From NCBI GenBank assembly GCA_029261835.1, contig JAJDAO010000047.1:62001-126000 (forward strand): a stretch of DNA of 64,000 nt, written 5' to 3'. Source of the DNA: Deltaproteobacteria bacterium (GTDB lineage Bacteria > Myxococcota_A > UBA9160 > UBA4427). How positions within the stretch are numbered: the stretch's first letter is position 1; every line of letters begins with the position of its first letter. This document shows, one piece after another, positions 2-16,221 of this stretch. The translations under genes and the position numbers were made by a program. The notes below the pieces were generated by a model. The model ran no database searches. It worked only from the letters and a program-made list of their open reading frames with translations, and was not told the origin of the DNA.

Positions 2-1408
2 GACAACCCGCGGCGCGGAAAGAACGTCTGGGTCGTCGGAATGCTCTGCGCCATCTACAACCGCGATGTCGCATTGGCCAAGGAGGAGATTCGCCAGCTC
101 TTCGAGCGCAAGCGCAAGGGCGAGAAGGTCATCGAGACCAACTACCGGCTGCTCGAGGCCGGGCACGCCTGGGCGATGGAACACCTCGACATGCGGCTCG
201 ACATCCGCAGCCAAGCCAGTGACGAGCCGCGCGTGGTCATGAGCGGCAACGCGGCGATCGCGCTGGGAACCATGGCGGCTGGCATCGAGGTCTGCTCGAT
301 GTATCCCATCACGCCCGCCACCTCGGCTTCGCACTTCCTGGCCGCGGACTTCCACAAGGCGGGTGGCGTGATTCATCAGGCCGAGGACGAGATCGCCGCA
401 GCCGGCTTCGCCATCGGTGCCTCCTACGCGGGCAAGACAGCGGTCACCATCACGTCGGGACCAGGCATGGCTCTCAAGACCGAGCTGCTCGGGCTGGCGG
501 TGATGGCCGAAGTGCCGCTGGTCGTGGTCGACGTGCAGCGCGGTGGCCCCTCGACCGGCCTGCCGACGAAGGTCGAGCAGGGCGACCTGCTGTCGTCTCT
601 CTTCGGACAGCCGGGGGACACGCCGAATATCGTGATCGCCCCCTCGGACCACCAGGAGTGCTTCGAGTTCGTGATCACGGCGCGCAAGCTCGCCGAGAGC
701 TTCCGCATGCCGGTCTTCGTGCTGAGCGACGCCAACCTCGCCACGGCCCAGGCCTGTTTCGAGTGTCCCGAGCCGAGCGAAGACTGGCTCTCGCCGCCGG
801 TCGATCAGTCGGAATGGCAGGAGGGAATTCCGCCCTTCGACTGGGATGCCGAAACCGGACTCTCGCAACGACCGATCCCGGGCCAGCCCGGGGGCCAGTT
901 CGTGCTCACCGGTCTCGCGCACGACGAGGAAAGTCACATCGCCTACGAATCGGCGATCAACCAGTACGCCATGCGCATGCGAAGCCACAAGCTGGCTGCC
1001 CTGCAGAAGACGCTGAAGCCGCCCGCCGTCTACGGTGACGAAGAGGGGGACCTGCTCGTCGTGGGCTGGGGCTCGACGCGCGGCGCCATCGAGGAGGCGA
1101 TCGATCGCATTCGGGCCGATGGCATCCGGGCGGGAGCGCTCTGCCTGCGCTTCATCTCACCGATGGAGCCGGGACTGAGCGCGATCTTCGCCCGTTACCG
1201 GAAGGTGATGACCATCGAGATCAACTACAGCGATGATCCGAGCGACTCGTTGATCAACGACGACTCGCGACGCTATTCACAGCTCGCGATGCTGCTGCGG
1301 GCCGGCACCCTGACGGACGTCGACTGTTGGTCTCGCGTACCGGGTCAGCCGTTGTCGCCACAGATGATCGAAGAGGCACTTCGCGGCCGGCTGGAGGCAC
1401 TGAAGTAA
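2..1408 (+). CDS. korA: 2-oxoacid:ferredoxin oxidoreductase, fused gamma-alpha subunit (5' partial)
   Basis: Alpha subunit of a 2-oxoacid:ferredoxin oxidoreductase, which with KorB oxidatively decarboxylates a 2-oxoacid (2-oxoglutarate or pyruvate) to the acyl-CoA and reduces ferredoxin. The frame is open to the first base of the window, so the start is missing. The visible N-terminus (VWVVGMLCAIYNRD, then a basic helix) is the end of the gamma domain, showing the gamma-alpha fusion typical of KorA. The alpha domain follows, with YPITPAT and GGPSTGLPTKVEQGDL, both hallmarks of the family, and a C-terminal transketolase-like domain. The stop overlaps the korB start (TAATG at 1406-1410), so the two are translationally coupled. 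The true substrate cannot be read from the sequence. I see no frameshift or missing motif in the part present. Confidence 0.93.
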   Translation, partial: DNPRRGKNVWVVGMLCAIYNRDVALAKEEIRQLFERKRKGEKVIETNYRLLEAGHAWAMEHLDMRLDIRSQASDEPRVVMSGNAAIALGTMAAGIEVCSMYPITPATSASHFLAADFHKAGGVIHQAEDEIAAAGFAIGASYAGKTAVTITSGPGMALKTELLGLAVMAEVPLVVVDVQRGGPSTGLPTKVEQGDLLSSLFGQPGDTPNIVIAPSDHQECFEFVITARKLAESFRMPVFVLSDANLATAQACFECPEPSEDWLSPPVDQSEWQEGIPPFDWDAETGLSQRPIPGQPGGQFVLTGLAHDEESHIAYESAINQYAMRMRSHKLAALQKTLKPPAVYGDEEGDLLVVGWGSTRGAIEEAIDRIRADGIRAGALCLRFISPMEPGLSAIFARYRKVMTIEINYSDDPSDSLINDDSRRYSQLAMLLRAGTLTDVDCWSRVPGQPLSPQMIEEALRGRLEALK

Positions 1409-2361
1409 TGTACGGACTCAAGACCGATTGGCTGGAAGAAGCCAGCCCACGCTACTACAGCGTCCAGGACTACGAGGGCGCCCCCGCGCGCTGGTGTCCG
1501 GGCTGTGGCGATCACGCGGTGCTGACAGCCGTGCAACGCCTCTGCCGCGACGAGCAGCTCGCGCCCGAGAAGACGGTGATGGTCTCCGGCATTGGCTGTG
1601 CCAGCCGCTTCCCCCACTACATGAAGACCTACGGCTTCCACGGGCTGCATGGCCGCGCTCTGCCCGTGGCCTGCGGCATCCGCTCGCGGCGACCCGACCT
1701 GCACGTCTTCGTGGCCACGGGCGATGGCGACTGCTGCTCGATCGGGGCCGGCCACTGGATCCACGCCATCCGATACAACATGAAGATGGTCGTGATGCTG
1801 CTGGACAACAATGTCTACGGCCTGACGAAGAATCAGACCTCACCCACCTCGGCCAAGGGCTCCTGCACGAATACGCATCCCACTGGCTCCTTTCTCCGCC
1901 CGCTGAATCCGATCCAGACCACGCTCGGTGTCACCAATGCGTCCTTCGTCGCACAGACCGTCGATTGGAACCCACCGCACCTGCTCGCCACTCTGCAGGC
2001 CGCGCACGCGCACCCGGGCTTCGCCTTCGTACGCATCATGCAGCGATGTCCGCATTTCCAGCCGGGGCTCTTCGACTCTGCTCAGAACGATCCGAACGAG
2101 TTGCTGCTGCTGACACATACCGACGGCATCGAAGTCGAGGATTCCATCAAGCGCGTGCTGAAGAATCAGCACGAGCACGACCCGTCCAACCTCGACGGGG
2201 CGCGAGAGCTGGCAGACCGCGAGGACGCCATCCCGATCGGGCTGCTCTACCAGAACGGAAATGCGGATCGCTACGACCAGTTCACCGCCTTGGGCATCGC
2301 GACATCGCGGGACGAGAAGATGACGGCGATCCGAGCCGAGCTCGGCCGCTACCGAATCTGA
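1408..2361 (+). CDS. korB: 2-oxoacid:ferredoxin oxidoreductase beta subunit
   Basis: Thiamine-diphosphate-binding beta subunit, 317 residues, the normal size for KorB. The N-terminal WCPGCGDH supplies cysteines for a [4Fe-4S] cluster, a further conserved Cys lies in SGIGCASRFP, and the ThDP/Mg motif is seen as ATGDGD followed about 30 residues later by NNVYGLTKNQTSPTS. The ATG at 1408 is chosen because it overlaps the korA stop and gives the family N-terminus; an open frame extends upstream but lies inside korA. This is the only intact ThDP site in the cluster: the two giant PFOR-like proteins downstream lack it, so KorAB is probably the catalytic core of the operon. The next gene starts 22 bases after the stop. 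Oxoacid specificity is not decidable here. Confidence 0.95.
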   Translation: MYGLKTDWLEEASPRYYSVQDYEGAPARWCPGCGDHAVLTAVQRLCRDEQLAPEKTVMVSGIGCASRFPHYMKTYGFHGLHGRALPVACGIRSRRPDLHVFVATGDGDCCSIGAGHWIHAIRYNMKMVVMLLDNNVYGLTKNQTSPTSAKGSCTNTHPTGSFLRPLNPIQTTLGVTNASFVAQTVDWNPPHLLATLQAAHAHPGFAFVRIMQRCPHFQPGLFDSAQNDPNELLLLTHTDGIEVEDSIKRVLKNQHEHDPSNLDGARELADREDAIPIGLLYQNGNADRYDQFTALGIATSRDEKMTAIRAELGRYRI

Positions 2362-2382
2362 GCAGAATGGAGGTCGTGAGTC

Positions 2383-5300
2383 GTGGGGGGCATGCTCGCT
2401 GAGCAGTCGGCCCGGCGTGCCGCCGGGCGTTCGAACGCGGAGGCCGGACCGGCTCCGGAGCTGCTGTCCGGTGGCGAGGCCATCGAGCGGCTCGAGCGGA
2501 CGCTCGTCGGCAACGCGCTGACGCGCGATCCCGCGGTGGCCGATGGGCTGGCCCTGGCCGGCGTGCGAGCCGCCAGCATCAGCGCGGGGGATGCGACCGC
2601 AAGCGCTCTCGCGCAGCACGAGCCGGGCGCCGTCTCCTGTGTCCACCACGTCTGGGCGCCACCGGCGCAGACCTCCATCGGCGCCGTCGAGTTCGCCGCT
2701 GCCTCGCTCCAGCAAGCGATCGACCACACCCTGGCGGCGCACCGGCTGAGTCAGCAGATCGGACGCTCAGCGTGCTGTTCACTGACACGAGAGCTGGCGG
2801 AGGATCTCACGCTGGTCAGCCTGCCCGCGCAGCCGGACATCGCCGTCGAGCCGCAGGTCGAGTCAAAGAAAGAGTCAAAGAGAAAGAGAGAAGAGCCCGC
2901 TGCGAGCGATGACCTGTTCGCGCTGGCGGCGCAGACGCTGCGCGCCGTGGGCAAGCGCACCGGGCGCAGCGCCGACATCGTCGGCTACCGCGGCGATGAA
3001 GACGCACAGATCACCCTGGTGGCCGCCGGTTCCTCGGCTGCACTCGCCGCGGAGCTGGTCGAGCTGCTTCGCGCTGCGGGAACGCGGGCCGGTGTGCTGT
3101 CGCTCGAGCTGGTACGCCCCTTCCCCGCGGCGCGCGTTCGCGAGGCACTGGCGGACGCGGGCGAGACCTTTCTGCTGCATGCCCCCGACGAGCCCTGTGT
3201 GTTGCTCGAGGCGCTGCGGCAGGCATCGCCAGAGGCAACCGATGTTCGCCCTCTCCCCTGTTCCAGCCTCTCGACGGCGATCGAAGCGCTGGCCCGTCTC
3301 GGCGCGATCGACGCGAAGGGCGTTTCGGCACCCGACGCCGCACCGCTGCGTCAGCAATTGATCGTGGCACCCGACGGCCCCTGGGGCCGCGCCCTCGCGC
3401 ACCGCGTGCTCGCCGGCCTGGCCGCCCGCGTTCCGCTTCAGATCGGTCGGCGCAGCTCGAGCCAGCTCGGCGCAACCCTGCTGGCTTGGGATGACGCCAC
3501 GCCGGAGCGAGAGCAAGGCGATCTGCTGCTCGCCCCCGACCCCGCCGTGCTGGGCTCAGCGGGTGTCCTCGAGCTGATGCGACCGGGCGGCGCCGTGCTG
3601 CTGCTCAGCCGAGCGAGCTCCGCGCAGCGCCTGGCCAGGCGTCTGTCGCGAGATGTCCGCAAGACGCTGTGCGAACGCGCGATCCGCCTCTACTGGAGCG
3701 AGCCAGCCGAGGACGATTCCGCCGCGGACAGCCTGTATCAGGCAGCGCTCCAGCTACTCACCGGCTCCGAGGATGCCGGCGTCACGTCACCGGTTCAGAG
3801 CGTTTCCGCCGAGGAGATCTCGAGCGCCACCGCCGTCGAGGAGGTCGACTTTCGCCGGGCAACCGCGCTGCCTCGAATGCCCGACACCAGCGATCAGAAC
3901 GCGCCTGCCGGCGACGAAAGCCGCTGGATCGAGCACTTCCATCACGCTGGAGTAACGGCCTGCGCGCCGGTGCCGCAGCCACCACTGAGACCACTGGTCT
4001 TCGAGGGGCTGATCCAGGAGGGGCGAGACATCCCGCATCCCTTCGTGCTGATGCCAGCGGCCGAGGAAGCTTCCGGCGCGGTGGCAGCACGCGGGCTCGC
4101 CCGCGTGCTGCGTGACGGCATCGAGTCGGCGGCCGCCGAGGGACGCGATGCCAACACGCTCGCGAGCAACCTGGATGCGCTGCAGGCCATCGCCGCTCAG
4201 CTCGCCAATCGCGATGACTCGGCCGCTCAGCTCGCACCGCTCCTCAGCGCCGTCGGCGAAGAGCTGGTGCGCCGCCTCGGCCTGCCCGAGCACGACGAGC
4301 AGGCGCTACGCGACGATCTCGCCGCTGTCGGCCGGGTACTGCCCGGCGACGCCCGCGTGCTGCGTCTCGACCGCGACACGCCGTTGCGTCTCTATTGCGC
4401 CGTGCAGAGCGCGACGCGCGCCCCACTCGAGCGGGCCTTCGCCGAACGCCTGACGCAGCTGTGCGAGCAGCTGCGCGATCTGCTGCAGCTCGATCGCATG
4501 GAGTCCGATCAAGGCCGCAGCCCGGACGCGCTGGCCGCTTCTTTGGGGGGCGCGGTCGAGGAGTACCTCGACCCGGCGGCCCTGGCACGCACGCTGCCCG
4601 CCAAGGCGGCGTCGGCCGTACTGGACCCGGCGCGCCGCCAGCGCATCGAACGAGCGCTCGCGACCCTCGAGCAGCACCTCGAGCAGGGCGCACGGGCGAG
4701 TCGGCCCGTTCTGCTGCATCCACCCGGCCTCGAGCTTCCCGAGCTCGAGACCGAGCGATGCGAGCATCCAGACCCGCTGGCGGCCGCCGTCGGCTACTAC
4801 GACGGTCTGGCGCAGCGGCACGCGACACTCTTGCGCGCCGTGCGCACTGCGGAGCTCGAGGCCGCGGGGCGCTACGAGGCGGTGCGCCACGACGACGCCC
4901 TGGCCGCGCTCGACTGGCAGGGATTCAGCGCCGAGGAGATCGCCCTGGTGCCGCCGCTGGCGGTCGTCACCAGCGGGCGTCGGCTACGCGGCCGTGAGCA
5001 GGCATCGCTGTCCGAGCTGCTGCGGTCGAGCCGTCCCGTCCAGGTGCTCGTCAACGACGCGGTCGGGGCGGCGGACGAGGCCGAGGACCTGTCGCTCTTC
5101 CATCTCGATCTCGGCCATCTGGTGATGGCTCATCGCGAGGCATTCGCGGTGAGTTCCACGCTGGCGCGACCCGAACGGCTGACCGAGGGACTGGCGCGCA
5201 TGGCCCGTGCCCCGCGGCCGGGTGTGGCCTTCGTCCGCCTGCCCAGTCCCGAGCTGTTGCCCCACTATTCGCTGCTCGCCGAGGCCGCGCTGCGGGGCCG

Positions 5301-6288
5301 CGCCTGCCCGGAGTTCATCTATGACCCGGATGCCGGCGAGAGCTGGGCAGACCGCTTCGACTTCGAGGGGAATCCCGAGCCCGACGGCGCCTGGCCGGCA
5401 CAGCCCGTCCGCTGCCTCGAGAACGCAGAGGAACGCGAGCTCGTGGCCCCCTTCACCTTCGCGGATGCGGTGGCGCTCGAGCCCGCCTACCTGCCCCATC
5501 TGCGCCTGATTCCGCCCGAAGCCTGCGACGACGACAGACAGATTCCGCTGGCGAGCTACCTGGAGCGCTTCGACCCCGAGGCCGGCGGGCGAGCCGTGCC
5601 CTACATCTGGCTGCTGGACCAGGCGGGAAACGTGCAGCGCGCCGTGGTCACACGCGAACTCGCCCTGGCCTGCCGCGACCGGCTGCGGGCCTGGCGCGTG
5701 GTCCAGGAGCTGGCGGGCTACGAGAATGCCTACGCCGAGCGAGCGGCCGCGACCGCTCGCGAGCAGGCACTGGCCGAAGCGGCCCAGGAGCGAGCGGCGC
5801 TCGAAGAGGCCCACGCCGAAGCGCTGGCCAACGCCCGCGGCGAGGGGGCACGCGAATCGCTCGAACAGCTCGCCACCGTCCTACTGAGCCCTGACGGTTT
5901 GGCGGCTGCGGCGCCGACCCACATCGGGCACGCACCCGCGATCGGCGCCGCACCCGGGGTCGGCGGTGTGCCGGCCGAGATTGACGGCGAAGCGGGCGAA
6001 GAGCCTGCACCTGCCGAAGAGGAGGAAGAGGCCCTCTCTTTCGACGAGGCCTACATCGACACACCGCTGTGCACCTCGTGCAACGAGTGCACGAACATCA
6101 ATCCCCGCCTGTTCCAATACAACGCCGATAAGCAGGCCTTCATCGGAGACCCGGCCGCCGGCAGCTTCGCCGAACTCGTCAGCGCCGCGGTTCTCTGTCC
6201 GGCCCACTGTATCCACCCCGGCAAGCCGCGCAGCGACGACAGCAGCGCCACGCCGGTGCTGATCGAGCAGGCGGCGAAGTTCAACTAG
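2383..6288 (+). CDS. Giant PFOR-like protein A with degenerate ThDP domain and C-terminal ferredoxin domain
   Basis: A 1301-residue cytoplasmic protein built like a pyruvate:ferredoxin oxidoreductase but catalytically altered. Start: GTG at 2383, with GGAGG nine bases upstream. Residues ~1-150 resemble PFOR domain I. Residues ~205-260 match domain II (a glycine-rich TLVAAGSSAAL strand and a VRPFP turn). Residues ~365-470 resemble the gamma-type domain. A long unassigned middle follows. Residues ~855-1010 align in layout with the ThDP domain, but the GDG...N motif is replaced (VVTSGRRLRG), so ThDP binding looks lost. A Gln/Glu/Ala-rich helical stretch precedes a C-terminal ferredoxin-like domain with Cys1230, 1233, 1236 and later Cys1272/1276. 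It is a paralogue of giant B at 7456. Its place between korB and rnfB suggests electron transfer from KorAB toward Rnf (inference). Family and domain calls are from pattern recognition only. Confidence 0.8.
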   Translation: MGGMLAEQSARRAAGRSNAEAGPAPELLSGGEAIERLERTLVGNALTRDPAVADGLALAGVRAASISAGDATASALAQHEPGAVSCVHHVWAPPAQTSIGAVEFAAASLQQAIDHTLAAHRLSQQIGRSACCSLTRELAEDLTLVSLPAQPDIAVEPQVESKKESKRKREEPAASDDLFALAAQTLRAVGKRTGRSADIVGYRGDEDAQITLVAAGSSAALAAELVELLRAAGTRAGVLSLELVRPFPAARVREALADAGETFLLHAPDEPCVLLEALRQASPEATDVRPLPCSSLSTAIEALARLGAIDAKGVSAPDAAPLRQQLIVAPDGPWGRALAHRVLAGLAARVPLQIGRRSSSQLGATLLAWDDATPEREQGDLLLAPDPAVLGSAGVLELMRPGGAVLLLSRASSAQRLARRLSRDVRKTLCERAIRLYWSEPAEDDSAADSLYQAALQLLTGSEDAGVTSPVQSVSAEEISSATAVEEVDFRRATALPRMPDTSDQNAPAGDESRWIEHFHHAGVTACAPVPQPPLRPLVFEGLIQEGRDIPHPFVLMPAAEEASGAVAARGLARVLRDGIESAAAEGRDANTLASNLDALQAIAAQLANRDDSAAQLAPLLSAVGEELVRRLGLPEHDEQALRDDLAAVGRVLPGDARVLRLDRDTPLRLYCAVQSATRAPLERAFAERLTQLCEQLRDLLQLDRMESDQGRSPDALAASLGGAVEEYLDPAALARTLPAKAASAVLDPARRQRIERALATLEQHLEQGARASRPVLLHPPGLELPELETERCEHPDPLAAAVGYYDGLAQRHATLLRAVRTAELEAAGRYEAVRHDDALAALDWQGFSAEEIALVPPLAVVTSGRRLRGREQASLSELLRSSRPVQVLVNDAVGAADEAEDLSLFHLDLGHLVMAHREAFAVSSTLARPERLTEGLARMARAPRPGVAFVRLPSPELLPHYSLLAEAALRGRACPEFIYDPDAGESWADRFDFEGNPEPDGAWPAQPVRCLENAEERELVAPFTFADAVALEPAYLPHLRLIPPEACDDDRQIPLASYLERFDPEAGGRAVPYIWLLDQAGNVQRAVVTRELALACRDRLRAWRVVQELAGYENAYAERAAATAREQALAEAAQERAALEEAHAEALANARGEGARESLEQLATVLLSPDGLAAAAPTHIGHAPAIGAAPGVGGVPAEIDGEAGEEPAPAEEEEEALSFDEAYIDTPLCTSCNECTNINPRLFQYNADKQAFIGDPAAGSFAELVSAAVLCPAHCIHPGKPRSDDSSATPVLIEQAAKFN

Positions 6289-6447
6289 CTCGCTGCGCCG
6301 TGGGGTCGTCGAAATGCTCGCCTTTGGGTCATACATGCTCGCCGTGGAGCCTCGCAGTCGGAGGTTCGCTCTGGCTATGAGCCGGGCGTCGCTGCTGTCG
6401 AGCCGCCCTGCCCGCCGCCCGCGGCAATCCCGACGGAGCCCGCACCC

Positions 6448-7302
6448 GTGATCGGCGAGATTCTCACAGCGCTCGGCATCATGACGGGAATGGGGCTGGC
6501 ATTCGCCGCCGTGCTCGCCATGGCGTACCGCTTCCTGCGTGTCGAGGAGGACCCGCGCCTCGAAGTCATCGAGGAGCTACTGCCGGGCAACAACTGCGGC
6601 GCGTGCGGAGAGCCGGGCTGCACCGCCTTCGCCGAGCAACTCCTGGCCGAGACGGTGGCACCGGGCAAGTGCACCGTATCCGATGGCGACACGTTGGTGC
6701 GCCTGGCCGACTTGCTCGGTGTGGGTGTCGGGGCCGAGGAGAAGCGTATCGCCCGACTCAAGTGCGCGGGCGGGCGCAGCAACGTGAAGGCACTGGCGCA
6801 GTACCGGGGCATGAGTTCGTGCCGCGCGGCCAGCGTGGTGGACGGCGGGGGCCACGGCTGTAGCTGGGGCTGCCTAGGTCTGGCCGACTGCGAACGCGCC
6901 TGCACCTTCGACGCCATTCGTATGAACGAGGACTGGCTGCCGGTGGTCTCGCCGGAGCCCTGCACGGCCTGTGGCGACTGCGTCGAAGTCTGCCCCCAGG
7001 ATCTCTTCGTGCTCGTCGCCGAGTCCCACAAGCTCTTCGTGCAGTGCAACGCACCGCTCAGCGGTGAAGACGCCGTCGCCCGCTGTCGCGTCGCCTGCGA
7101 TGCCTGCGGGCGCTGCGCGGCAGACGCACCGGAGGGCTGCGTAGAAATGGTGAACAATCTGCCGATCGTGCACTACGACACACCCTGCCAGCCGTCGCCA
7201 GAGGCGACCTGGCGCTGTCCGACCGGTGCCATTCAATGGCTGGAGGGCGAGCAGTTCGCCGAGCCCGAAGAAGACGCACCGCCCTGGAGGACCTACGGCT
7301 GA
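6448..7302 (+). CDS. rnfB: Rnf complex iron-sulfur subunit RnfB
   Basis: Ferredoxin-accepting subunit of the Rnf (ferredoxin:NAD+) ion-translocating complex, 284 residues. Residues ~5-28 are the membrane anchor. Cys50, 53, 58 and 75 form the Fe-S motif in LPGNNCGACGEPGC. Three more cysteine groups follow: Cys138/142/148/152 (CSWGCLGLADCERAC), Cys172/175/178/182 and Cys213-231, so several [4Fe-4S] clusters are expected. The start is GTG 6448, with only a modest CGGAG upstream. The gene lies 159 bases after giant A and 153 before giant B. In known Rnf operons rnfB sits next to rnfA or rnfC; here a 1430-residue gene separates it from rnfC. Direct copies of ATGCTCGCC at 6314 and 6335 in the upstream gap have no evident role. 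Confidence 0.95.
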   Translation: MIGEILTALGIMTGMGLAFAAVLAMAYRFLRVEEDPRLEVIEELLPGNNCGACGEPGCTAFAEQLLAETVAPGKCTVSDGDTLVRLADLLGVGVGAEEKRIARLKCAGGRSNVKALAQYRGMSSCRAASVVDGGGHGCSWGCLGLADCERACTFDAIRMNEDWLPVVSPEPCTACGDCVEVCPQDLFVLVAESHKLFVQCNAPLSGEDAVARCRVACDACGRCAADAPEGCVEMVNNLPIVHYDTPCQPSPEATWRCPTGAIQWLEGEQFAEPEEDAPPWRTYG

Positions 7303-7397
7303 GCTGCGTGGCGCGATCGCCCACCTCGAGCCCCCCAGAGCTCGGAATACAACGAGACTGGCCTGCCCTCTCGACCGGCTCGAGGCTGTGAACTCAG

Positions 7398-7439
7398 AGC
7401 TCCAAAATCGGAGCTGCGAAATCGAAGCTCCAGAATCGA
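7398..7439 (+). repeat. Three tandem 14-bp units before giant gene B
   Basis: Three adjacent 14-base units (7398-7411, 7412-7425, 7426-7439) share the pattern AGCTSC-R-AATCGR and end 16 bases before the ATG of giant B. The first unit also forms an AGCTCC/GGAGCT hairpin with the start of the second (7398-7415). No good Shine-Dalgarno precedes the gene, so the element may influence translation or mark a processing point in the operon mRNA; that is conjecture. Confidence 0.6.
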
Positions 7440-7455: not shown

Positions 7456-10400
7456 ATGCCTTCCAACTCATTGACCGGCGGTGGAATTATCTGGCTTCGG
7501 CGCCTCTGGCGCCGCACGGCGGACGGAGTTGGACCGAGCTCGGGCCCGCAGCCGACGCTGCTCGCCGGACCGGCCACCGCCGCGCTCGAGAGCCAGCTCT
7601 GTGAGGGGTTCGTCGAGCGCGACGCCGGAGGCATCTGCGCCGAGCAGACTCGCAAGATGAATCTCCCGGGCGCTCCCGGCGACAACCTCTTCGGGCGACC
7701 GCTGCAAATCGAGCGGGCGCACTCGGCGGCCGAGGCCGTCGCGCTGCTGAGCGGCATGACGATGGCCGGGCTGCGGAGCACCAGCTTCGTCTCGGGCCGC
7801 GAGCTGCCGGCGGTGCATGCCGGGCTGCGGGGCTGTGCCGAGCGACTGCTCCCGCTGGTGCTGCACGCCGAGCTGGGCGATAGCGGCCACGCCGGCTACC
7901 ACGCCGTGGCCGATGCCGGCGCCTTCCAGCTGATGGCGAGCTCCCTGCAAGAGACACTCGACCTGACGCTGCTGGCGCGCTGGATCGCCGAGCGCTCGCT
8001 CTGCCCGGGCCTGCTCGCCAGCGACGGCGCACAGCTCGAGAGCGTCGCGCTGCCCGACCCCAAGCTGGTGCGCAGCTTTCTCGGCGCCCCCGGCGCAGCG
8101 CTGACGAGCCCCGGCGAGGGGCAACGGCTGCTCTTCGGCGCTGAGCGCGCGCGCCTCTTCGCCTGGTTCGATGCGGATCGCCCCGTGGCGACCGGCGGCC
8201 TGCGTTCGCTCGACGCCGAGACGCGCGCCGCTGCCGGTCGCGAGGCGTTCTTCCAGTCCGAGCTGTGCGCACTGGCTCGCGAGGGCATGCAGACGCTCGG
8301 GCAGCTGACCGGCCGCCCCCTCAGCTTCGTCTCGGCACACGGCATGGCGGATGCCGAGCTGGTGTGGCTGGCGCAGGGCGCGGTCGCCCAGACGGCGCGA
8401 GCCACGGCAGACGAGCTGAGGAGACAGGGGCGCGCGCGGATCGGCGTGTTGACCATCCACTGGCTGCGACCGTGGCCCGCAGAGCAGATCACAGCGGCCC
8501 TTGGCGCGCTGCGCTGCCCGGTCGCGGTCATCGAGGCACTCGACCCGGGTGCCGGCGAGCCTCCGCTGCTGCGAGAGCTCGCGGCGACGGCTGCCGGCAG
8601 CGGCTGGACGTCGGCGATCTGTGCCCGAAACGGTCCGACACCCGCCGCGCTGGAATGGCTCTGCCAGCTGATGGGTCGCGCCGATCGGTCAAGTCGCGTG
8701 AATCTCGAAGGCGCAGCGGCGCCCGACGCGAGCAGCGAGTTTCCGCGACGAGAGGCACTGATCCAATCGGTGGCTCATGCCTACCCGAGCTTGAGCGAAG
8801 CCGGCCCATCCGCGCCCCAGATCGCCGTGACGCCATCGCGCGACAGGCGCTCTCTCGGGCTGCTGGCGCACGAGGCCACACTGCCGGCCTCCGCTCTGGA
8901 ACGATTCACGGAGCTCGCCGAGAGCGAGCTTCGGGGCTGCTTGCGCGGCGGCGTCACGCGGCCCGAGCCCGGCTGTCTCGCGGTGCGGCTGCACGCCGCG
9001 GCCGAGAGCTTCGCCGGGCCCGGTGTGCGCGCGGCGGTCTCGCTCTTGCTGGTGGCCGGAGAACCGCGGTCGCTGGGAGATGCGCTGGCGTCGGTCACGG
9101 AGAAGGGCCTCGCGCTGCTGGCCAGCGACGCCGCGCCCGAACGCGTCTGGAGCGAGGCGCCCGTCCTCTGGCGACGGCGCGTGCGAGACAAGGGGCTGCG
9201 CGTGTTGCTGGTCGGCAGCGACTTCGACCAAGCCCTTGAAGCGCTCCGAGAGACTCTGCGCGGCGAACTCGAGGTGCTCCTGAGCGAGGGTCGGGCGAGC
9301 GAGATTCCGTGGCGGGAGATGTCCGGCGAAGACAGCCCGGATCGCGCGCTGCCCGCGGTGGTGGAGCGGATCGAGCGCATCCGGCCGACCCATGACAGCC
9401 TGCCGCGCTTCTGGGGCGAGGTGGAGCAGCCGCGTCAGGGCGGCGAGGTCGACTCGCTGCCCGAGCCGATCTCGACCGTCGCGGCCGTACCCGCCGGCGC
9501 CTCCGCTTTGGCACCGTCGGCGCAGAGCGATCTCCTGCCGCAACTCGACGTCCAGGCCTGCACGGGCTGTGGGCGCTGCTGGTCGGCCTGCCCCGACTCG
9601 GCCATCGGCGTGACGGCGCTCTCCCTCGAACCCCTGCTGACGGCGGCCAGCCACCAAGCCGGCTGCCAGGGCCAGGCCGCCAACGCGCTGCGACGTGCCC
9701 ACAAACACCTGGCTGGACGTCTGGCGGGCGCATTGCGCAAGAGCGAGTCGGCCACACTCGATGGCGCGCTCATGCGCGACGCTTGGGATTGGCTGCTGGG
9801 CCAGCTCGATCCGCCGGAGGAGCAGCGACCCGACTATGAAGCGGCCTTCGAGGCAACCGTCGAAGCGCTGAGCCAGCTCGAGCCGGTCGTCTGCAAGCCG
9901 TTCTTCGATCAGCCGGAGGCAGCTCGCAAGGGCGCCGGGGCGCTCTTGGTACTCGCGGTGGACCCGAGGGCTTGCCTCGGCTGTGGCCTGTGCGCGGCGG
10001 TCTGTCCCGAGCAGGCGCTCCCGCTGGTGGCCTGTGAAGCCGAAGATCGCCGTGCGTACGCCGAGCACTGGCGCCTCTGGGAGGCACTGCCCGACACACC
10101 TGGGGAGATCATCGCGCAGGCGGCCGAACACGCGGACGTCGGCCGGCTGGCGGCGGTACTGCTCTCTCGTCACTGTGCTCAGGCTCAGGTGGCGAGCGCC
10201 TCGGGCGAGCCGGGCTCCGGCGAGCGCCTGGCCACGCGCCTGCTGGCGGCGTTGCTGGAGGAGCGCGGCCAGCGGCGGGCGAGCGAGACGCTCGGACAGC
10301 TCGACGAGCGCCGCATCAAGCTCGACCAGGCGGTGCGGGAGCAGCTCGCAGCCGGTCTCTCGAAGACGGATCTCACTACGCTCGAGCACGCGCTGTCCGA

Positions 10401-11748
10401 GAGCGGGCGAGGTCCGGCAGACCTCGCACAGCTCGGGACGCGACTCGAAGAGCTGGGAAGTCGCGCTGAGATCGATCGCGCCAACGTGCTTCGCATGACT
10501 CATGCGGCCGGCGAGCTGGACGACTGGAGCGCTCGCCTGGCGAGCGGACAGGACGGGCTGGGGCGGGCCCGCTTCGGCGCCGTGATCACGCGCGGCAGCC
10601 TCAGCGACTGGGCGGCCCGCTTCCCCCTGCACCCGTTCTATGCCCCGCTCACGCTGGCCCCCAGCACTGAGGGCATCGAGCTGGCGCGTGGGCTGGCGCG
10701 CGGACTGGTGGCGCAGCACTTGGCCCTCGTCCGCAGCCTGCGAGTCGCCGAGCTCGAGCTCGAGCAACCGCCGGATCGCGCGCAGCGACTCGAGGCCATC
10801 CAACGGCTGAGCTGGCGTGACCTCGAGCCGGGCGAGCAGCAGGCCTGTCCGCCGCTGCTCCTGCTGGCCGATGATCACGCGCTGCTCGACTCGGGCCTGG
10901 GGGCGCTGACACGCCTGCTCGAGGCCGAGCTGCCCATCAAGCTGGTGCTGCTCGACGGCATCGGGCGGCTCGCGCGGGCCGGCGATGCGGCGCTGCTCGC
11001 CATGGCACACCAGGGCGCCTTCGTGCTCTCGACCTCGATCGCACACGCCGATCACCTGGCCGCCGGTGTAACGGACGCGCTGGCCCACGCCGGCCCGGCG
11101 CTGATCCACATTCACGCACCGAGCCCCGGTCGCCACGGCTTCGCGGCAGACGCGGCGCTCGAGCGCGCGCGGCTGGCGGTCGAAGCCCGTGCCCACGTGC
11201 TGCTTCGCTACGACCCCGCCGCCGAGGGCTCCTTTGGGCTGCGCGCCAGCCTGGCGGGCAATCCCGCCCCGCAGCAGGACTGGGGCGAAGTCGATTATCT
11301 CGGCTGGGCGGCCGGCGAGCAGCGCTTCGACGATCACCTCACAACGCGTGAGGAAACGCATGCGGCCCTGCCGCTGGACGCCTGGCTCGCACAGCCCGAG
11401 AGTGGCCGCCGCGGCAATCTGCCGGGCGTCGAGATCGGGGAGCGCGCGCTGATCGCGAGTCGCGAGCTCGCGGATGCGGCCGCGACTCGGCTGGCGCGCT
11501 GGCGCACACTGCAAGAGCTGACGGGCGGCCGGAGCCCCTTCAGCGAGCGAATTCGCGAAACGCTCTCGGCGGAGATCGAGAGCGAGCAGAGTGCGAAGCG
11601 CGAAGCGCTGCAAGCGAGTCATGCCGCTGAACTCGCCAGCCTCAAGGCCAGCGCAGAGCAGGACTCGCGCGAGCGGCTCACGCAGCGGCTGCTCGAACTC
11701 TCCGGCTTCGACTCGCCTCCTGAGACCAGCGGGAACGGCACCTCATGA
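7456..11748 (+). CDS. Giant PFOR-like protein B with two [4Fe-4S] clusters and degenerate ThDP domain
   Basis: A 1430-residue relative of pyruvate:ferredoxin oxidoreductase inserted between rnfB and rnfC. Residues ~60-200 resemble PFOR domain I, and ~295-345 domain II (LAQGAVAQTARATADEL, then LRPWP). A gamma-like region follows. A bacterial-type dicluster ferredoxin module has Cys702/705/708/712 (CTGCGRCWSACP) and Cys840/843/846/850 (CLGCGLCAAVCP). Residues ~1130-1230 occupy the ThDP domain position, but the expected GDG and downstream Asn motif are absent (LLADDHALLDSGLG), so ThDP catalysis is unlikely. The C-terminus is a charged helical tail. Giant A and B share the module with RELA..RL..WR..QEL and the pseudo-ThDP region, so they are paralogues. 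The stop overlaps the rnfC start (ATGA at 11745). I infer an electron-wiring or scaffold role with Rnf. The start ATG has only a weak ribosome site. Confidence 0.8.
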   Translation: MPSNSLTGGGIIWLRRLWRRTADGVGPSSGPQPTLLAGPATAALESQLCEGFVERDAGGICAEQTRKMNLPGAPGDNLFGRPLQIERAHSAAEAVALLSGMTMAGLRSTSFVSGRELPAVHAGLRGCAERLLPLVLHAELGDSGHAGYHAVADAGAFQLMASSLQETLDLTLLARWIAERSLCPGLLASDGAQLESVALPDPKLVRSFLGAPGAALTSPGEGQRLLFGAERARLFAWFDADRPVATGGLRSLDAETRAAAGREAFFQSELCALAREGMQTLGQLTGRPLSFVSAHGMADAELVWLAQGAVAQTARATADELRRQGRARIGVLTIHWLRPWPAEQITAALGALRCPVAVIEALDPGAGEPPLLRELAATAAGSGWTSAICARNGPTPAALEWLCQLMGRADRSSRVNLEGAAAPDASSEFPRREALIQSVAHAYPSLSEAGPSAPQIAVTPSRDRRSLGLLAHEATLPASALERFTELAESELRGCLRGGVTRPEPGCLAVRLHAAAESFAGPGVRAAVSLLLVAGEPRSLGDALASVTEKGLALLASDAAPERVWSEAPVLWRRRVRDKGLRVLLVGSDFDQALEALRETLRGELEVLLSEGRASEIPWREMSGEDSPDRALPAVVERIERIRPTHDSLPRFWGEVEQPRQGGEVDSLPEPISTVAAVPAGASALAPSAQSDLLPQLDVQACTGCGRCWSACPDSAIGVTALSLEPLLTAASHQAGCQGQAANALRRAHKHLAGRLAGALRKSESATLDGALMRDAWDWLLGQLDPPEEQRPDYEAAFEATVEALSQLEPVVCKPFFDQPEAARKGAGALLVLAVDPRACLGCGLCAAVCPEQALPLVACEAEDRRAYAEHWRLWEALPDTPGEIIAQAAEHADVGRLAAVLLSRHCAQAQVASASGEPGSGERLATRLLAALLEERGQRRASETLGQLDERRIKLDQAVREQLAAGLSKTDLTTLEHALSESGRGPADLAQLGTRLEELGSRAEIDRANVLRMTHAAGELDDWSARLASGQDGLGRARFGAVITRGSLSDWAARFPLHPFYAPLTLAPSTEGIELARGLARGLVAQHLALVRSLRVAELELEQPPDRAQRLEAIQRLSWRDLEPGEQQACPPLLLLADDHALLDSGLGALTRLLEAELPIKLVLLDGIGRLARAGDAALLAMAHQGAFVLSTSIAHADHLAAGVTDALAHAGPALIHIHAPSPGRHGFAADAALERARLAVEARAHVLLRYDPAAEGSFGLRASLAGNPAPQQDWGEVDYLGWAAGEQRFDDHLTTREETHAALPLDAWLAQPESGRRGNLPGVEIGERALIASRELADAAATRLARWRTLQELTGGRSPFSERIRETLSAEIESEQSAKREALQASHAAELASLKASAEQDSRERLTQRLLELSGFDSPPETSGNGTS

Positions 11749-13085
11749 GCACCGCTGCAGCCGCCGAGGCCCGACCGCGCAGCTTCCGTGGGGGCGTCCA
11801 CCCCGACGACAACAAGCGCGCCACCGACGCGCTCGCCATCGAGCGCATGCCTTTCGTCGATGAGTACGTGATGCCCCTGTCGCAACACATCGGCGCGCCC
11901 GCCAAGGCGGTCGTGATGGTGGGTGAGCGCGTGGTACGAGGCATGCCGATCGCCGAGCCCGGCGCCTTCATCTCGACATCGCTGCACTCACCGGTGACCG
12001 GGCGGGTCAAGGCGATCGAGCTGCGCCTGCACCCGAACGGCAAGATGATGCCCGCCATCGTGATCGAGACCGACGCCTACGACAGTCAGCGGCTGCCGGC
12101 CGCCGAGCCGGTCGACGTGGCGGCGCTCTGCGCCGACGAAATGGTGGCGCTCGTGCAGCAGAGCGGCCTGGTGGGCCTCGGCGGTGCGGCCTTTCCCAGC
12201 CACGTCAAATTCAAGGTGCCCGACGACCGGTGCGTGCAAGCCGTCGTCGTCAATGGTTGCGAATGCGAGCCGTTTCTGACTTGCGACCACCGCCTGATGC
12301 TCGAGCAACCGCAGGGGGTCGTGAGAGGCACGAAGCTCATCATGTCGCAGGTGGGCTGCGAGCGCGGCTACATCGGCGTGGAGCTCAACAAGCGCGATGC
12401 CATCGCCGCGCTGCGCGCCGCCGCGCCGCCCGAAATCGAGATCGTGCCGCTGCAGGTCAAGTATCCGCAGGGCGCGGAGAAGCTGCTGATCGATGCCATC
12501 TTCAAGCGTGAGGTACCGGCCGGCGGACTGCCGCTCGACATCGAGATGCTGGTCAACAGCGTCGGAACGACGCTGGCGCTCTCCGACTGGCTCGACCGCG
12601 GCGTACCGCTGATCGAACGCGTGGTGACCGTGACCGGGCCGGGGGTGGCTCATCCCCGCAACCTGCTCGTGCCGCTCGGCACACCGCTGTCGGCCGTACT
12701 CGAGCACTGTGGCGGGCTGGTGCCGGGCGCCCATCAGGTGGTGCTGGGTGGACCGATGATGGGCATGGCCCAGAAGAGTCTCGGCGTGCCGGTACTGAAG
12801 GGGACCTCGGGCATTCTGTGCCTGGACCGCACCGCGGCCGCACCCGTGCGCGAGTATGCCTGTATCCGCTGCGGACGCTGCGCGGAAGCCTGCCCGATGT
12901 TCCTGAATCCCACGCGACTGGCCCAGCTCGCGCGCTTCGAGCATGTGGAGGAGCTCGAGGCCAACAGTCTGCTCAACTGCTTCGAGTGCGCCGCGTGCTC
13001 GTTCGTGTGCCCGTCACACATACCGCTGGTGCAGTGGATGCGCGTCGGCAAGGGCATGCTGCGCACCTGGAAGGCCTCGTCGTGA
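11745..13085 (+). CDS. rnfC: Rnf complex NADH/FMN subunit RnfC
   Basis: NAD(H)- and FMN-binding peripheral subunit of Rnf, 446 residues. The N-terminal FRGGVHP is the usual RnfC opening. The nucleotide-binding part has GLGGAAFPSHVK and NGCECEPFLTCDH. Two C-terminal cysteine motifs, CIRCGRCAEACP and CFECAACSFVCP, bind two [4Fe-4S] clusters. The length fits the short RnfC type without the long Ala/Lys-rich tail seen in many gammaproteobacteria. Its ATG overlaps the stop of giant B by four bases (ATGA), so translation of the two is coupled; this is the firmest physical sign that giant B belongs to the Rnf unit. It is followed 31 bases later by rnfD. Confidence 0.96.
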   Translation: MSTAAAAEARPRSFRGGVHPDDNKRATDALAIERMPFVDEYVMPLSQHIGAPAKAVVMVGERVVRGMPIAEPGAFISTSLHSPVTGRVKAIELRLHPNGKMMPAIVIETDAYDSQRLPAAEPVDVAALCADEMVALVQQSGLVGLGGAAFPSHVKFKVPDDRCVQAVVVNGCECEPFLTCDHRLMLEQPQGVVRGTKLIMSQVGCERGYIGVELNKRDAIAALRAAAPPEIEIVPLQVKYPQGAEKLLIDAIFKREVPAGGLPLDIEMLVNSVGTTLALSDWLDRGVPLIERVVTVTGPGVAHPRNLLVPLGTPLSAVLEHCGGLVPGAHQVVLGGPMMGMAQKSLGVPVLKGTSGILCLDRTAAAPVREYACIRCGRCAEACPMFLNPTRLAQLARFEHVEELEANSLLNCFECAACSFVCPSHIPLVQWMRVGKGMLRTWKASS

Positions 13086-13116
13086 TGCCTGGCAGCGCCA
13101 CAGCGGGGCGATCCGC

Positions 13117-14118
13117 ATGACGAAGCAGGCACCGGAGCTGGTGATCTCAACCGCCCCCTTCGTGCGCGAGGGCGTCACGACGCCACGCATCATGCGAGAG
13201 GTGCTGCTCGCGGCGCTGCTGGTCCTCGTGATGGCGTGCTGGAACTTCGGGCTGGGCGCACTGCTCGTCGTGCTTGCCGCGGCGGCCGGTGCGGCCGGCT
13301 GTGAATGGCTCTTTACGCGCAACCAGTCGCCGAACCCGCTGCTCGACTACAGCGCCGTCACGACCGGCGTGCTGCTCGGATTGACGCTTCCGCCCGCCAT
13401 GCCGCTCTGGATGGCCTTCCTCGGCGGCGCGGCGGGAATCGGCCTCGGCAAGCTGATCTGGGGCGGCCTCGGCCAGAATCTCTTCAACCCCGCGCTGGTC
13501 GGGCGCGCCTTCCTGCAGGCGGCCTTCCCCACCGTCATTACGACGTGGTCCAAGCCCGTGGCCGGCGGCGATCTCTTCGCGCTGCCCACGAGCCTGTTCG
13601 CCGCGCCGCTGATGCACGGCGCCCCGGATGGACTCTCTGCCGCCACGCCACTCGGACTGGCCAAGTTCGAGGGGCAGGTCACCGGACTGGGCTCGCTGAT
13701 GATCGGCGATACCAGCGGCTCACTCGGGGAGACCAGCGCCGCACTCCTGATCGCGATTGGTCTCTGGCTCGCCGCCCGTCGCATCTTCGACTGGCGTCTC
13801 CCCGTGGCCACGCTCGCCTCGGTCGGGATCCTCTCGGGTCTGCTCTACCTGCTGAATTCGAGCAGCTACCCGCCGCCGAGCTTCATGCTGTGCTCGGGCG
13901 GACTGCTGTTCGGCGCCATCTTCATGGTGACGGATCCCGTCAGTACCCCCACGACACCCCGTGGCGCCTGGATCTTCGGTGCCGGTGTCGGCGCGCTGGT
14001 CGTGCTGATCCGCCTGTTCGGCGGTCTTCCCGAGGGCGTGATGTACGCCATCCTGCTGATGAACGCCGTCACCCCCCACATCAACCGCCACACTCAGCGG
14101 CGCCCGTTCGGAGCCTGA
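13117..14118 (+). CDS. rnfD: Rnf complex membrane subunit RnfD
   Basis: Integral membrane subunit of Rnf, 333 residues with about nine or ten hydrophobic segments; homologous to NqrB. The sequence SAAT around Thr177 (D-G-L-S-A-A-T-P-L) matches the place of the covalent FMN-threonine of the family. NQSPNPLLDYSAVTTG and GGLGQNLFNPALVGRAFL are typical RnfD blocks, and DPVSTPTTPRG lies near the C-terminal helices. The ATG at 13117 is chosen since it gives the family N-terminus; the frame is open upstream inside rnfC. It is followed by rnfG after three bases. Confidence 0.94.
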   Translation: MTKQAPELVISTAPFVREGVTTPRIMREVLLAALLVLVMACWNFGLGALLVVLAAAAGAAGCEWLFTRNQSPNPLLDYSAVTTGVLLGLTLPPAMPLWMAFLGGAAGIGLGKLIWGGLGQNLFNPALVGRAFLQAAFPTVITTWSKPVAGGDLFALPTSLFAAPLMHGAPDGLSAATPLGLAKFEGQVTGLGSLMIGDTSGSLGETSAALLIAIGLWLAARRIFDWRLPVATLASVGILSGLLYLLNSSSYPPPSFMLCSGGLLFGAIFMVTDPVSTPTTPRGAWIFGAGVGALVVLIRLFGGLPEGVMYAILLMNAVTPHINRHTQRRPFGA

Positions 14119-14121
14119 CCC

Positions 14122-14799
14122 ATGGCGAGCCCCGAGGCCGGTCCCCTGCGCATGATGGTCACCCTCGGCATCGCCGGGCTGTGCTCCGGCATTGCGGTCG
14201 TGGGGATCTTCTTGGTGACCAAGCCGCGGATCGAGCGCAACCGCGCCGAGGCGCTCGAAGCCGCCATCTTCCGCGTGCTCGAGGGAGCCAAGACGCGGGT
14301 GGCCCTGGTGCTGCGCGAGGGCGAGCTGGTGCGCTACGAGGCGGAGGATGGCGCGATTCCCAAGGAAGAGGCGATCTACGCCGGCTACGACGAGAGCGGC
14401 GCGCTCGTCGGCCACGCCATTCCCGCCGAGGGCGCGGGCTTCCAGGACACCATCAAGCTGCTCTACGGCTATCGCGCCGCCAGCGCGCGCGTCGTGGGCA
14501 TCGAGGTGCTGGAGAGTCGCGAGACACCGGGCCTCGGCGACAAGATCATCAAGGACGACCACTTCGTGGCCAACTTCCGCGATCTGGCCGTGGAGCCCGA
14601 GATCGTGCTGACCAAGACCGCTCGCAGCCGCGAGAACGAGGTCGAGGCAATCAGCGGGGCGACGATCTCATCGCGCGCCGTCGTGCGCATCATCAACGAA
14701 TCGAACGCACGCTGGCTCGCGCGTCTGGGGGGCGATCAGGCACGCCACGGGACCGCGGATGCCGACGAGCGGGTGCTGGCCCGAGGAGGAGTGGAGTAG
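14122..14799 (+). CDS. rnfG: Rnf complex FMN-binding subunit RnfG
   Basis: Single-span membrane subunit of Rnf, 225 residues, with an N-terminal anchor (residues ~10-32) and an extracytoplasmic FMN domain. The flavinylation motif SGATISS is present with Thr181 as the expected covalent FMN site, which would need an ApbE flavin transferase; none is encoded in the window. ETPGLGDKI is the conserved block before it. The stop TAG (14797-14799) overlaps the GTG start of rnfE. Length and motif order are normal for the family. Confidence 0.94.
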   Translation: MASPEAGPLRMMVTLGIAGLCSGIAVVGIFLVTKPRIERNRAEALEAAIFRVLEGAKTRVALVLREGELVRYEAEDGAIPKEEAIYAGYDESGALVGHAIPAEGAGFQDTIKLLYGYRAASARVVGIEVLESRETPGLGDKIIKDDHFVANFRDLAVEPEIVLTKTARSRENEVEAISGATISSRAVVRIINESNARWLARLGGDQARHGTADADERVLARGGVE

Positions 14800-15452
14800 T
14801 GGCGTCCGAGCAGCCGACCTACGAAGAGCTCATCAAGGGGCTGTGGCGAGAGAATCCGGTCTTCATCCAGCTTCTCGGTCTGTGCCCCGCATTGGCGGTC
14901 ACCAATTCCGCCATCAATGCACTCGCCATGGGGGCGGCGACGACCTTCGTTCTCGTTGGCTCGAGTCTGCTGGTCTCCAGTCTGCGCTCGCTGATTCCCA
15001 AGCAAGTCCGCATCACCACCTTCATCATCGTCATCGCCACCTTCGTCACGGTGGCCGACTTCACGCTGCAGGCCCTGGCGCCGGTCGTCCACAAGGAGCT
15101 CGGCGCCTTCATCGCGCTCATCGTCGTCAACTGTCTGATTCTGGGACGTCAGGAGGCATTCGCCTCGCGCCACTCGCAGCGGCCGGCACTGGCCGATGCG
15201 CTGGGGATGTCGTTGGGCTTCAGCTTCGCCCTCTTCCTGCTGGGCGCCATCCGCGAGATTCTCGGCAGTGGCTCGCTGTTCGGCGTATCGCTCTTCGGGC
15301 CCGACTTCGAGCCCTGGGTGATCATGATCCTGCCGCCGGGTGGATTCATCACCCTCGGACTCCTGCTCGGCGTCTTCGCCTGGTTCAAGGAGCACCGCGA
15401 GCGGGCCAGCCAACAGGCCGCCCTCGACACCGGCGAGCGGAGGGCCGCCTGA
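14799..15452 (+). CDS. rnfE: Rnf complex membrane subunit RnfE
   Basis: Polytopic membrane subunit of Rnf, homologous to NqrD and paralogous to RnfA; 217 residues, about six membrane segments. Cys29 (LLGLCPALAVT) and Cys112 (VVNCLILGRQEA) are the two cysteines expected to share the intramembrane iron-sulfur centre with RnfA. The start is GTG 14799, overlapping the last base of the rnfG stop and preceded by GAGGAGG; the frame is open far upstream but that part lies inside rnfD/rnfG. The stop overlaps the rnfA ATG (TGATG). Confidence 0.95.
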   Translation: MASEQPTYEELIKGLWRENPVFIQLLGLCPALAVTNSAINALAMGAATTFVLVGSSLLVSSLRSLIPKQVRITTFIIVIATFVTVADFTLQALAPVVHKELGAFIALIVVNCLILGRQEAFASRHSQRPALADALGMSLGFSFALFLLGAIREILGSGSLFGVSLFGPDFEPWVIMILPPGGFITLGLLLGVFAWFKEHRERASQQAALDTGERRAA

Positions 15453-16051
15453 TGCTGCCCGAAATCGATTTCGCCGGGCTGCTGTGGATCTTCGTCGCCG
15501 CCAGTGTGGTGAACAACTTCACGCTGTCGTACTTCCTGGGCCTCTGCCCGTTCCTCGGCGTCAGCGGCCGGATCGAGACGGCGCTTCGCATGGGCATGGC
15601 GAACATCTTCGTGCTGCTCGTGACCTCCCTGTGCGCCTCTCTGCTCAACACCTTCGTGCTGCCCCACGCCCCCTACCTGCGCCTGCTCGCCTTCATCGTG
15701 GTGATCGCCAGCACGGTTCAGTTCGTCGAGATGGCGATCAAGAAGCTCAGCCCGGCGCTGTTCCGTGCACTCGGGATCTTCCTTCCGTTGATCACGACGA
15801 ACTGCGCCATCCTCGGCCTGGCGCTCTTTCAGACCAACAAGCAGTATGGCTTCATCGAGGGGATCGTCTTCGCGCTGGGCGCCGGCTGTGGGCTCACGCT
15901 GGCGCTGGTGCTGATGGCGGGCATCCGCGAGGAGAACGAGCTCGCCACGATCCCCGAGGCACTCAAGGGCGCCGCGATGAGCTTCCTGGTCGCGGGCATT
16001 CTCAGCATGGCGTTCATGGGCTTCGCAGGCCTCTTCAGCGCCACGTCCTGA
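15452..16051 (+). CDS. rnfA: Rnf complex membrane subunit RnfA
   Basis: Polytopic membrane subunit of Rnf, homologous to NqrE; 199 residues with about six membrane segments. It has the family opening VVNNFTLSYFLGLCPFLG with Cys32, and TTNCAILG with Cys118; these two Cys with RnfE Cys29 and Cys112 complete the intramembrane metal site. The ATG overlaps the rnfE stop. Gene order B-(giant)-C-D-G-E-A matches neither the common proteobacterial A-B-C-D-G-E order nor a plain C-D-G-E-A-B order, because rnfB lies upstream and is split from rnfC. Confidence 0.95.
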   Translation: MLPEIDFAGLLWIFVAASVVNNFTLSYFLGLCPFLGVSGRIETALRMGMANIFVLLVTSLCASLLNTFVLPHAPYLRLLAFIVVIASTVQFVEMAIKKLSPALFRALGIFLPLITTNCAILGLALFQTNKQYGFIEGIVFALGAGCGLTLALVLMAGIREENELATIPEALKGAAMSFLVAGILSMAFMGFAGLFSATS

Positions 16052-16068
16052 GCCGTCGGGAGATCCGC

Positions 16069-16221
16069 ATGGACTATCTCATCGCAATCGTCGGCCTGGC
16101 GGGCGCCTGCGTGCTCTGGTTCGGGGTGCAGCACTGGGCCGGCGTCTCGGACGAGCTGCCCTGCGACAAGCACGGCGGCGACTGCGAGGGCTGCAAGCTC
16201 GAGCACGACGGCTGCGAGTGA
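16069..16221 (+). CDS. NqrM-like small membrane protein with four C-terminal cysteines
   Basis: A 50-residue protein 17 bases after rnfA, with GGGAG six bases before the ATG. Residues ~3-21 form one membrane helix, then a short polar region with Cys32, Cys39, Cys42 and Cys49 (C-x6-C-x2-C-x6-C) among Asp, Glu and His. In layout it resembles NqrM, the short one-helix, four-Cys protein needed to mature Na+-NQR, thought to deliver iron to the (Cys)4 site of NqrD/NqrE. RnfE and RnfA are the homologues of NqrD/NqrE and carry those cysteines here. I infer an Rnf maturation factor. The spacing of the cysteines differs from what I recall of NqrM, so it may be an analogue; a FeoB-associated Cys-rich protein is the other small family of this shape. 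Confidence 0.7.
   Translation: MDYLIAIVGLAGACVLWFGVQHWAGVSDELPCDKHGGDCEGCKLEHDGCE

Follow-up and report, generated by a model that had tools for sequence, protein, structure and literature searches.

What do two giant proteins do in an operon that otherwise encodes a 2-oxoacid:ferredoxin oxidoreductase (KorAB) and an Rnf complex? The question is raised by a 64-kb stretch of DNA (hereafter "the window": positions 62001-126000 of contig C47 in genome G000, a 6.5-Mb draft genome rated 95% complete), where the called genes run korA-korB-giant A-rnfB-giant B-rnfCDGEA, all on the + strand. We refer to the giants as A and B, and label genomes with G, contigs with C and extracted loci with L. Rnf is understood to take electrons from soluble ferredoxin. 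Judging from the genes, we consider it probable (roughly 60%) that this operon encodes an Rnf-based unit for electron transfer from a 2-oxoacid to NAD+, in which electrons would pass from KorAB to RnfB through a pseudoenzyme, A:B, derived from pyruvate:ferredoxin oxidoreductase (PFOR). Two results carry this reading: by sequence comparison A and B are PFOR homologs whose catalytic motifs have been lost, and across genomes A is genetically linked with korAB, and B (or a PFOR in its place) with rnf.

Two PFOR paralogs without catalytic motifs

The giants and their cluster-binding regions lie at these positions of the window:

2383-6288, + strand: giant A, degenerate PFOR paralog, 1301 amino acids from the GTG at 2383 (alternative ATG at 2392)
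6055-6216, + strand: C-terminal single [4Fe-4S] ferredoxin domain of A (Cys 1230, 1233, 1236 and 1272; Fer4_13, E 3.4e-6)
7456-11748, + strand: giant B, degenerate PFOR paralog, 1430 amino acids, with POR_N and PFOR_II remnants
9559-9591, + strand: first CxxCxxCxxxC motif of B (Cys 702, 705, 708 and 712)
9973-10005, + strand: second CxxCxxCxxxC motif of B (Cys 840, 843, 846 and 850)

A useful reference comes from the same genome, where contig C75 (L026:8815-18899) carries another rnf operon, with the genes rnfB, a 1649-residue PFOR, rnfC, rnfD, rnfG, rnfE and rnfA. This PFOR has POR_N, POR, thiamine-pyrophosphate (TPP) and ferredoxin domains and matches a solved PFOR with E 1.3e-88; an operon of this type, with its PFOR intact, is likely the parent type of the giants. 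A is 30.5% identical to the 1649-residue PFOR over 544 columns (E 2.9e-57), B is 36% identical to it in the N-terminal part and 30% in the C-terminal part, and in a profile comparison A matches B over the greater part of both proteins (E 1.7e-71). AlphaFold models of A 640-1301 and B 601-1430 (mean predicted local distance difference test scores, pLDDT, of 81.5 and 76.8) both find PFOR chains first in the PDB, with best E values of 6e-8 and 1.1e-11, and the modelled C-terminus of A resembles ferredoxin I 1fxr (TMt 0.82, E 5.6e-3). Scores against the PFOR family TIGR02176 are 85.9 bits for B and 37 bits for A and do not reach its cut-off of 911. A single-sequence scan of genome contigs with B found no relative; relatives were gathered by KorB alignment instead of with the sequence of B.

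Which parts of a PFOR have the giants kept? To answer this, 29 rnf-linked PFORs were aligned with nine B proteins and the cysteines of each cluster were counted. Domain V, which is the two-cluster ferredoxin domain, has all eight of its cysteines in 29/29 PFORs and 9/9 B proteins. The four cysteines of the proximal cluster are likewise in all 29 PFORs, and in B they occur in 0, 1, 0 and 0 of nine proteins per position; the C-terminal ferredoxin has its four in 29/29 PFORs and in 0/9 B proteins. Other motifs were found by pattern search in 31 PFOR and 12 B frames, some clipped by contig ends. GDG plus NTGG, the TPP motif, is in all 30 readable PFORs and none of the 10 readable B proteins, YPITP is in 28/28 and 0/10, respectively, and the residue aligned with what we take to be the PFOR active-site Glu is changed in B. 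These losses rule out that B is itself a PFOR. A has lost GDG in 14/14 proteins and has no domain V; apart from the four in its ferredoxin (14/14, an alignment that excludes the A of L121), none of its cysteines is invariant.

Two exclusions define these counts. The motif CxxCGE was dropped as a marker: 17 of the 28 linked PFORs covering that region read CxxCSE or CxxCAE, and it also matched the B of a Gammaproteobacteria metagenome-assembled genome (MAG) through domain V. Because it is a poor marker, the alignment was used for the count of proximal cysteines. The B frame of G030 (L018, G030:C1) is approximately 2430 amino acids long and runs into unrelated sequence, so it was left out of the C-terminal motif counts; it was also left out for the N-terminal motif, where the stretch is masked.

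The first-pass annotation of this DNA had described two giant PFOR-like proteins of more than 1300 residues. Their length and homology hold, and we now describe them more narrowly, as paralogs without catalytic motifs. Sequence and predicted fold both make A and B homologs of PFOR (TIGR02176; structures 6cin and 1b0p), and B retains the two-cluster domain V, but both lack the TPP motifs and B is almost without proximal-cluster cysteines.

Linkage to kor and rnf genes

We surveyed linkage in 90 genomes of the window's class; statements about Rnf cover this phylum and the MAGs named below. The class has 27 rnfC genes, in 24 of the 90 genomes, one of them clipped by a contig end and the other 26 with readable upstream DNA. 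In 26/26 of these the gene immediately before rnfC encodes a PFOR or B (20 PFOR, 6 B), and A follows korA-korB in all 11 class loci assigned to A. The suggestion that giant B is built into the Rnf unit is therefore borne out, and the giants do not occur equally often away from kor and rnf genes in this class. B holds this place in six of the 26 cases, and a PFOR with intact motifs holds it in the other 20.

KorB gives a second view of the same linkage. A KorB scan confirmed 579 loci, and among the 80 listed, 10 are close relatives of the window's KorB (at least 55% over at least 290 residues; one of these genomes, G377, looks identical to another, G078). In nine of the 10, korB is followed by A or by a short A-like stub, and the tenth is clipped by a contig end; rnfC is matched in all 10 genomes, in one case by a partial hit below cut-off. 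A, B and Rnf genes were found in 0/70 of the other listed loci, several of which are on short contigs and for which the stub was not queried. Across 14 loci, pairwise KorB distances correlate with those of RnfB (r 0.88) and RnfC (r 0.91), as high a value occurring in 0/2000 permutations; common species history may contribute to this correlation. Gene order is not rigid, as G071 has its rnf genes upstream of korAB.

Operon types across genomes

A search of genomes for the same gene order found that the arrangement recurs in many, and the linked operons can be sorted into four types. Type I is rnfB-PFOR-rnfCDGEA. Type II, korA-korB-stub-rnfB-PFOR-rnfCDGEA, occurs in G003, G073, G014, G029:C26, two MAGs named Gemmatimonadota and one named Rokubacteria. 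Its stub is 333-364 amino acids long and matches the core of A in a profile comparison (probability 98.3, E 1.8e-14); G196 and G371 have a longer A-like match of approximately 430 amino acids. A side observation on the embedded PFORs is that the one in G374:C15 (L151) lies within rnf in two separate frames.

Type III, korA-korB-A-rnfB-B-rnfCDGEA, is that of the window, and also occurs in G053 (on two contigs), in G078, which belongs to the same order as the window's genome, and in G029:C43. As far as their contigs extend, MAGs named Gammaproteobacteria, Saprospiraceae and Chromatiales have it too, and it is partial in G060, G192, G247 and a Planctomycetota MAG. In G030 the type III genes are spread over three places, and that genome is probably misassembled. 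Separately, the Gammaproteobacteria MAG has a second rnfC (G381:C71). In a tree of RnfC plus RnfD from 34 loci, rooted at the midpoint, type III Rnf minus Chromatiales forms one clade (support 0.79), and on this result the direction of evolutionary change between types is something we infer.

Type IV is gltD-korA-korB-A with no rnf nearby, found in G082, G072 and G061, and also in G084, where the contig stops after A. The gene directly upstream of korA-korB-A is of GltD/NfnB type (L119:3289-4794, L121:3624-5138, L122:13726-15237 and L120:3994-5496). Three of these four loci have readable DNA past A, with no rnf in it, and genomes G072, G082 and G061 show no rnfC. Such an operon could possibly encode a soluble 2-oxoacid:NAD(P) enzyme. 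With a GltD-type flavoprotein as the neighbour and no rnf, A looks like an output adaptor of KorAB. A Kiritimatiellae locus (L030) has korA-korB-A with neither gltD nor rnf, on a contig that opens 371 bp before korA; the PFOR-rnfCDGE of that genome is on a separate contig (L162). The proposal of a dedicated unit of korAB, giants and Rnf thus needs amending: the unit exists, but the four gltD loci tie A to korAB rather than to Rnf.

In types I and II the C-terminal ferredoxin belongs to the PFOR, and the stub of type II has none; in types III and IV it belongs to A, and B has none. We take this to mean that the parts of one PFOR were divided between A and B. The length of A varies: the room from korB to the stop of A is 735-902 amino acids in eight loci, versus approximately 1310-1330 in the window and three relatives.

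The rest of the operon

The remaining genes of the operon are as follows:

2-1408, + strand: korA, gamma-alpha fusion, 3' part (POR_N and PFOR_II domains)
1408-2361, + strand: korB, TPP beta subunit (TPP_enzyme_C; CPGC and GDGD motifs intact)
6448-7302, + strand: rnfB (family match 68.6 bits)
11745-13085, + strand: rnfC (TIGR01945, 494.9 bits, cut-off 245.95)
13117-14118, + strand: rnfD (TIGR01946, 286.6 bits, cut-off 207)
14122-14799, + strand: rnfG (FMN_bind PF04205; SGATIS motif; TIGR01947, 87 bits, under the cut-off of 102)
14796-15452, + strand: rnfE (TIGR01948, 229.3 bits, cut-off 213.4)
15452-16051, + strand: rnfA (TIGR01943, 221.5 bits, just under the cut-off of 229.3)
16069-16221, + strand: small Cys-rich open reading frame (ORF); one relative, G053 (L022), has a 40% identical ORF in the same place

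Neighbouring genes overlap at korA/korB (1 bp), B/rnfC (4 bp), rnfG/rnfE (4 bp) and rnfE/rnfA (1 bp), and rnfB is bounded by gaps of 159 bp and 153 bp. The order from korA to rnfA on one strand and the four stop/start overlaps are all as the first-pass annotation gave them, and the Rnf is complete, all six subunits (RnfA-E and RnfG) being encoded together. The annotation's "NqrM-like" name for the small ORF is not backed by a family match in Pfam or NCBIfam.

The window edge truncates korA, which starts 524 bp further upstream; the full frame (L005:9477-11408) encodes 643 amino acids and scores 519 bits against TIGR03710, above the cut-off of 482.75. The best PDB matches of KorA and KorB are 6n2n_A (E 6.1e-84) and 6n2n_B (E 1.6e-49), making the 2-oxoglutarate:ferredoxin oxidoreductase of Magnetococcus marinus their nearest solved relative. 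KorA is of the gamma-alpha type, and KorB has its TPP motifs and cluster cysteines intact and scores 225 bits, under the PorB_KorB cut-off of 262. From this relative alone, 2-oxoglutarate is the presumed substrate. The window KorAB resembles 6n2n in structure match and in keeping the catalytic motifs, but its operon has no separate ferredoxin subunit gene, and A and B stand in that place.

RnfB falls slightly short of its NCBIfam cut-off (68.7 bits). RnfC carries two CxxCxxCxxxC motifs and RnfG an SGAT-type motif, as read in the translations, which we take to be cluster sites and a flavin motif, respectively. The 32 RnfB proteins of types I-III, the window's included, have 20 invariant cysteines in common. 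Compared with the solved RnfB 9eri_B (which we take to be that of Acetobacterium woodii), the window RnfB lacks several cysteines of the distal Fe-S region, and the C-terminal stretch is absent. In these operons RnfB may be adapted, at its docking end, to a PFOR or to the giants. The window resembles known Rnf systems in having all six subunits, but differs in the PFOR or pseudo-PFOR gene between rnfB and rnfC. A canonical counterpart is the second rnf operon of the Chromatiales MAG (L166, rnfA-B-C-D-G-E), which has a distant RnfB (27.6%) and no PFOR, whereas the window has a pseudo-PFOR. The rnf operon of the organism in PMC3534657 is also described without a PFOR.

Three other features of the window lie outside the operon. 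Near the operon end, the minus strand encodes a fusion of a class V aminotransferase (cysteine desulfurase-like) with a rhodanese domain (17270-18775), which could serve Fe-S supply. A molybdopterin oxidoreductase gene follows, overlapped by that of a PAS histidine kinase (18917-22364). Further away, a family III CoA-transferase of 808 amino acids with two matched stretches (58426-60852) is probably a tandem fusion.

Proposed mechanism

How might these proteins work together? KorAB would oxidise a 2-oxoacid with CoA, the electrons going first to the [4Fe-4S] cluster of KorAB itself. A and B, related by descent to the rnf-embedded PFOR and no longer catalytic, would probably form a pseudo-PFOR heterodimer, acting as both docking scaffold and wire, to which A would contribute one ferredoxin cluster and B two clusters. 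This heterodimer would replace or funnel free ferredoxin and hand the electrons to RnfB, and Rnf would then reduce NAD+ and pump Na+ or H+. The cluster order, from KorAB to the A ferredoxin, the two B clusters and RnfB, is a guess. In this scheme A looks like the adaptor at the KorAB end, and RnfB and RnfC seem to have B or PFOR as a constant partner. Other systems tie a 2-oxoacid oxidoreductase to an NAD(P)-reducing module, namely phenylglyoxylate:NAD oxidoreductase (PadEFGHI) and those with GltD/NfnB flavoproteins, but in the window that role falls to Rnf, which would pump ions.

The metabolic setting favours the oxidative direction. G000 has no 2-oxoglutarate dehydrogenase E1 above cut-off (two weak matches), no ATP-citrate lyase citrate-binding domain above cut-off (one weak match; 0/14 control genomes were positive) and three heme-copper oxidases. 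As the genome is rated 95% complete, the absences are not proof.

Several observations weigh against this mechanism. Over their whole length, the models of A and B reach template-modelling (TM) scores to PFOR of only 0.2-0.4. A has invariant residues outside its ferredoxin, including R115, H197, R334, W365, W465 and Q469 (modelled-fragment numbering). A also occurs with no rnf nearby (L119, L120, L122 and L030; L121 ends after A), which together with the three genomes that show no rnfC means that A is not Rnf-specific. In G002, B comes directly after A with no rnfB between them, and the sole rnfC found belongs to another operon. Operons with an intact PFOR make up most of the linked ones, and many have no korAB. 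PFOR relatives also occur with no adjoining rnf, in G198, G245 and the split loci L159, L160 and L161 (G081, G047 and G075). Finally, G000 has a second, ordinary KorAB on contig C73.

A more ambitious version holds that KorAB, an A:B heterodimer and Rnf form one membrane complex with 2-oxoacid:NAD+ oxidoreductase activity, which would have arisen when an active Rnf-embedded PFOR was duplicated, catalysis passed to KorAB and the dead copies became a wire, and which would pump ions without free ferredoxin. We put this forward tentatively, at somewhat less than even odds.

Alternative explanations

The strongest alternative is that there is no stable complex: A and B would be soluble dedicated carriers, co-expressed with their partners, and electrons would still diffuse. 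A adjoins a GltD-type flavoprotein as well as Rnf, as a carrier could. However, proteins of 1300-1430 amino acids that retain a PFOR scaffold would be costly as mere carriers, and the place of PFOR or B directly before rnfC in all 26 readable cases of the class also counts against it. We regard this explanation as unlikely but worth keeping in mind.

A second alternative reverses the flow: NADH and the ion gradient would drive Rnf backwards, sending low-potential electrons via B and A to KorAB for the reductive carboxylation of succinyl-CoA. The nearest solved KorAB relative, the Magnetococcus enzyme, presumably works in the reverse tricarboxylic acid (TCA) cycle, which would suit this direction. 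So would Rnf itself, which PMC7414866 describes as working in both directions. Against it, the ATP-citrate lyase domain is not found above cut-off (although no control genome was positive either), the lack of an E1 above cut-off implies that a KorAB is needed oxidatively, and the three terminal oxidases fit poorly with it. Reverse flow is accordingly improbable.

Could the remodelled PFOR pockets of A and B have acquired new catalysis, with another substrate or other CoA chemistry? Both retain a full-length scaffold, and the invariant non-ferredoxin residues of A could be read this way, but the variable length of A, together with the short stub of type II, counts against it, and we think this less probable still. 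That A and B are decaying, functionless PFOR duplicates would agree with the loss of catalytic motifs and can be ruled out for practical purposes, as open frames and all cluster cysteines are retained in MAGs named from several phyla.

Significance

Rnf, PFOR and KorAB are each already known. A literature search of open-licence PMC papers did not find the korAB-A-rnfB-B-rnfC arrangement described. In the class studied here, a PFOR or its catalytically dead relative precedes every rnfC with readable upstream DNA, and the window operon additionally encodes an oxoacid oxidase. If the parts bind one another, oxidation of a 2-oxoacid would drive an ion pump directly. The operon would also offer a clear example of an enzyme that became an electron conduit and whose intermediate forms still exist in living genomes. 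Where terminal oxidases are present and no 2-oxoglutarate dehydrogenase E1 was found, as in this organism, the unit may be an energy-conserving step of the TCA cycle.

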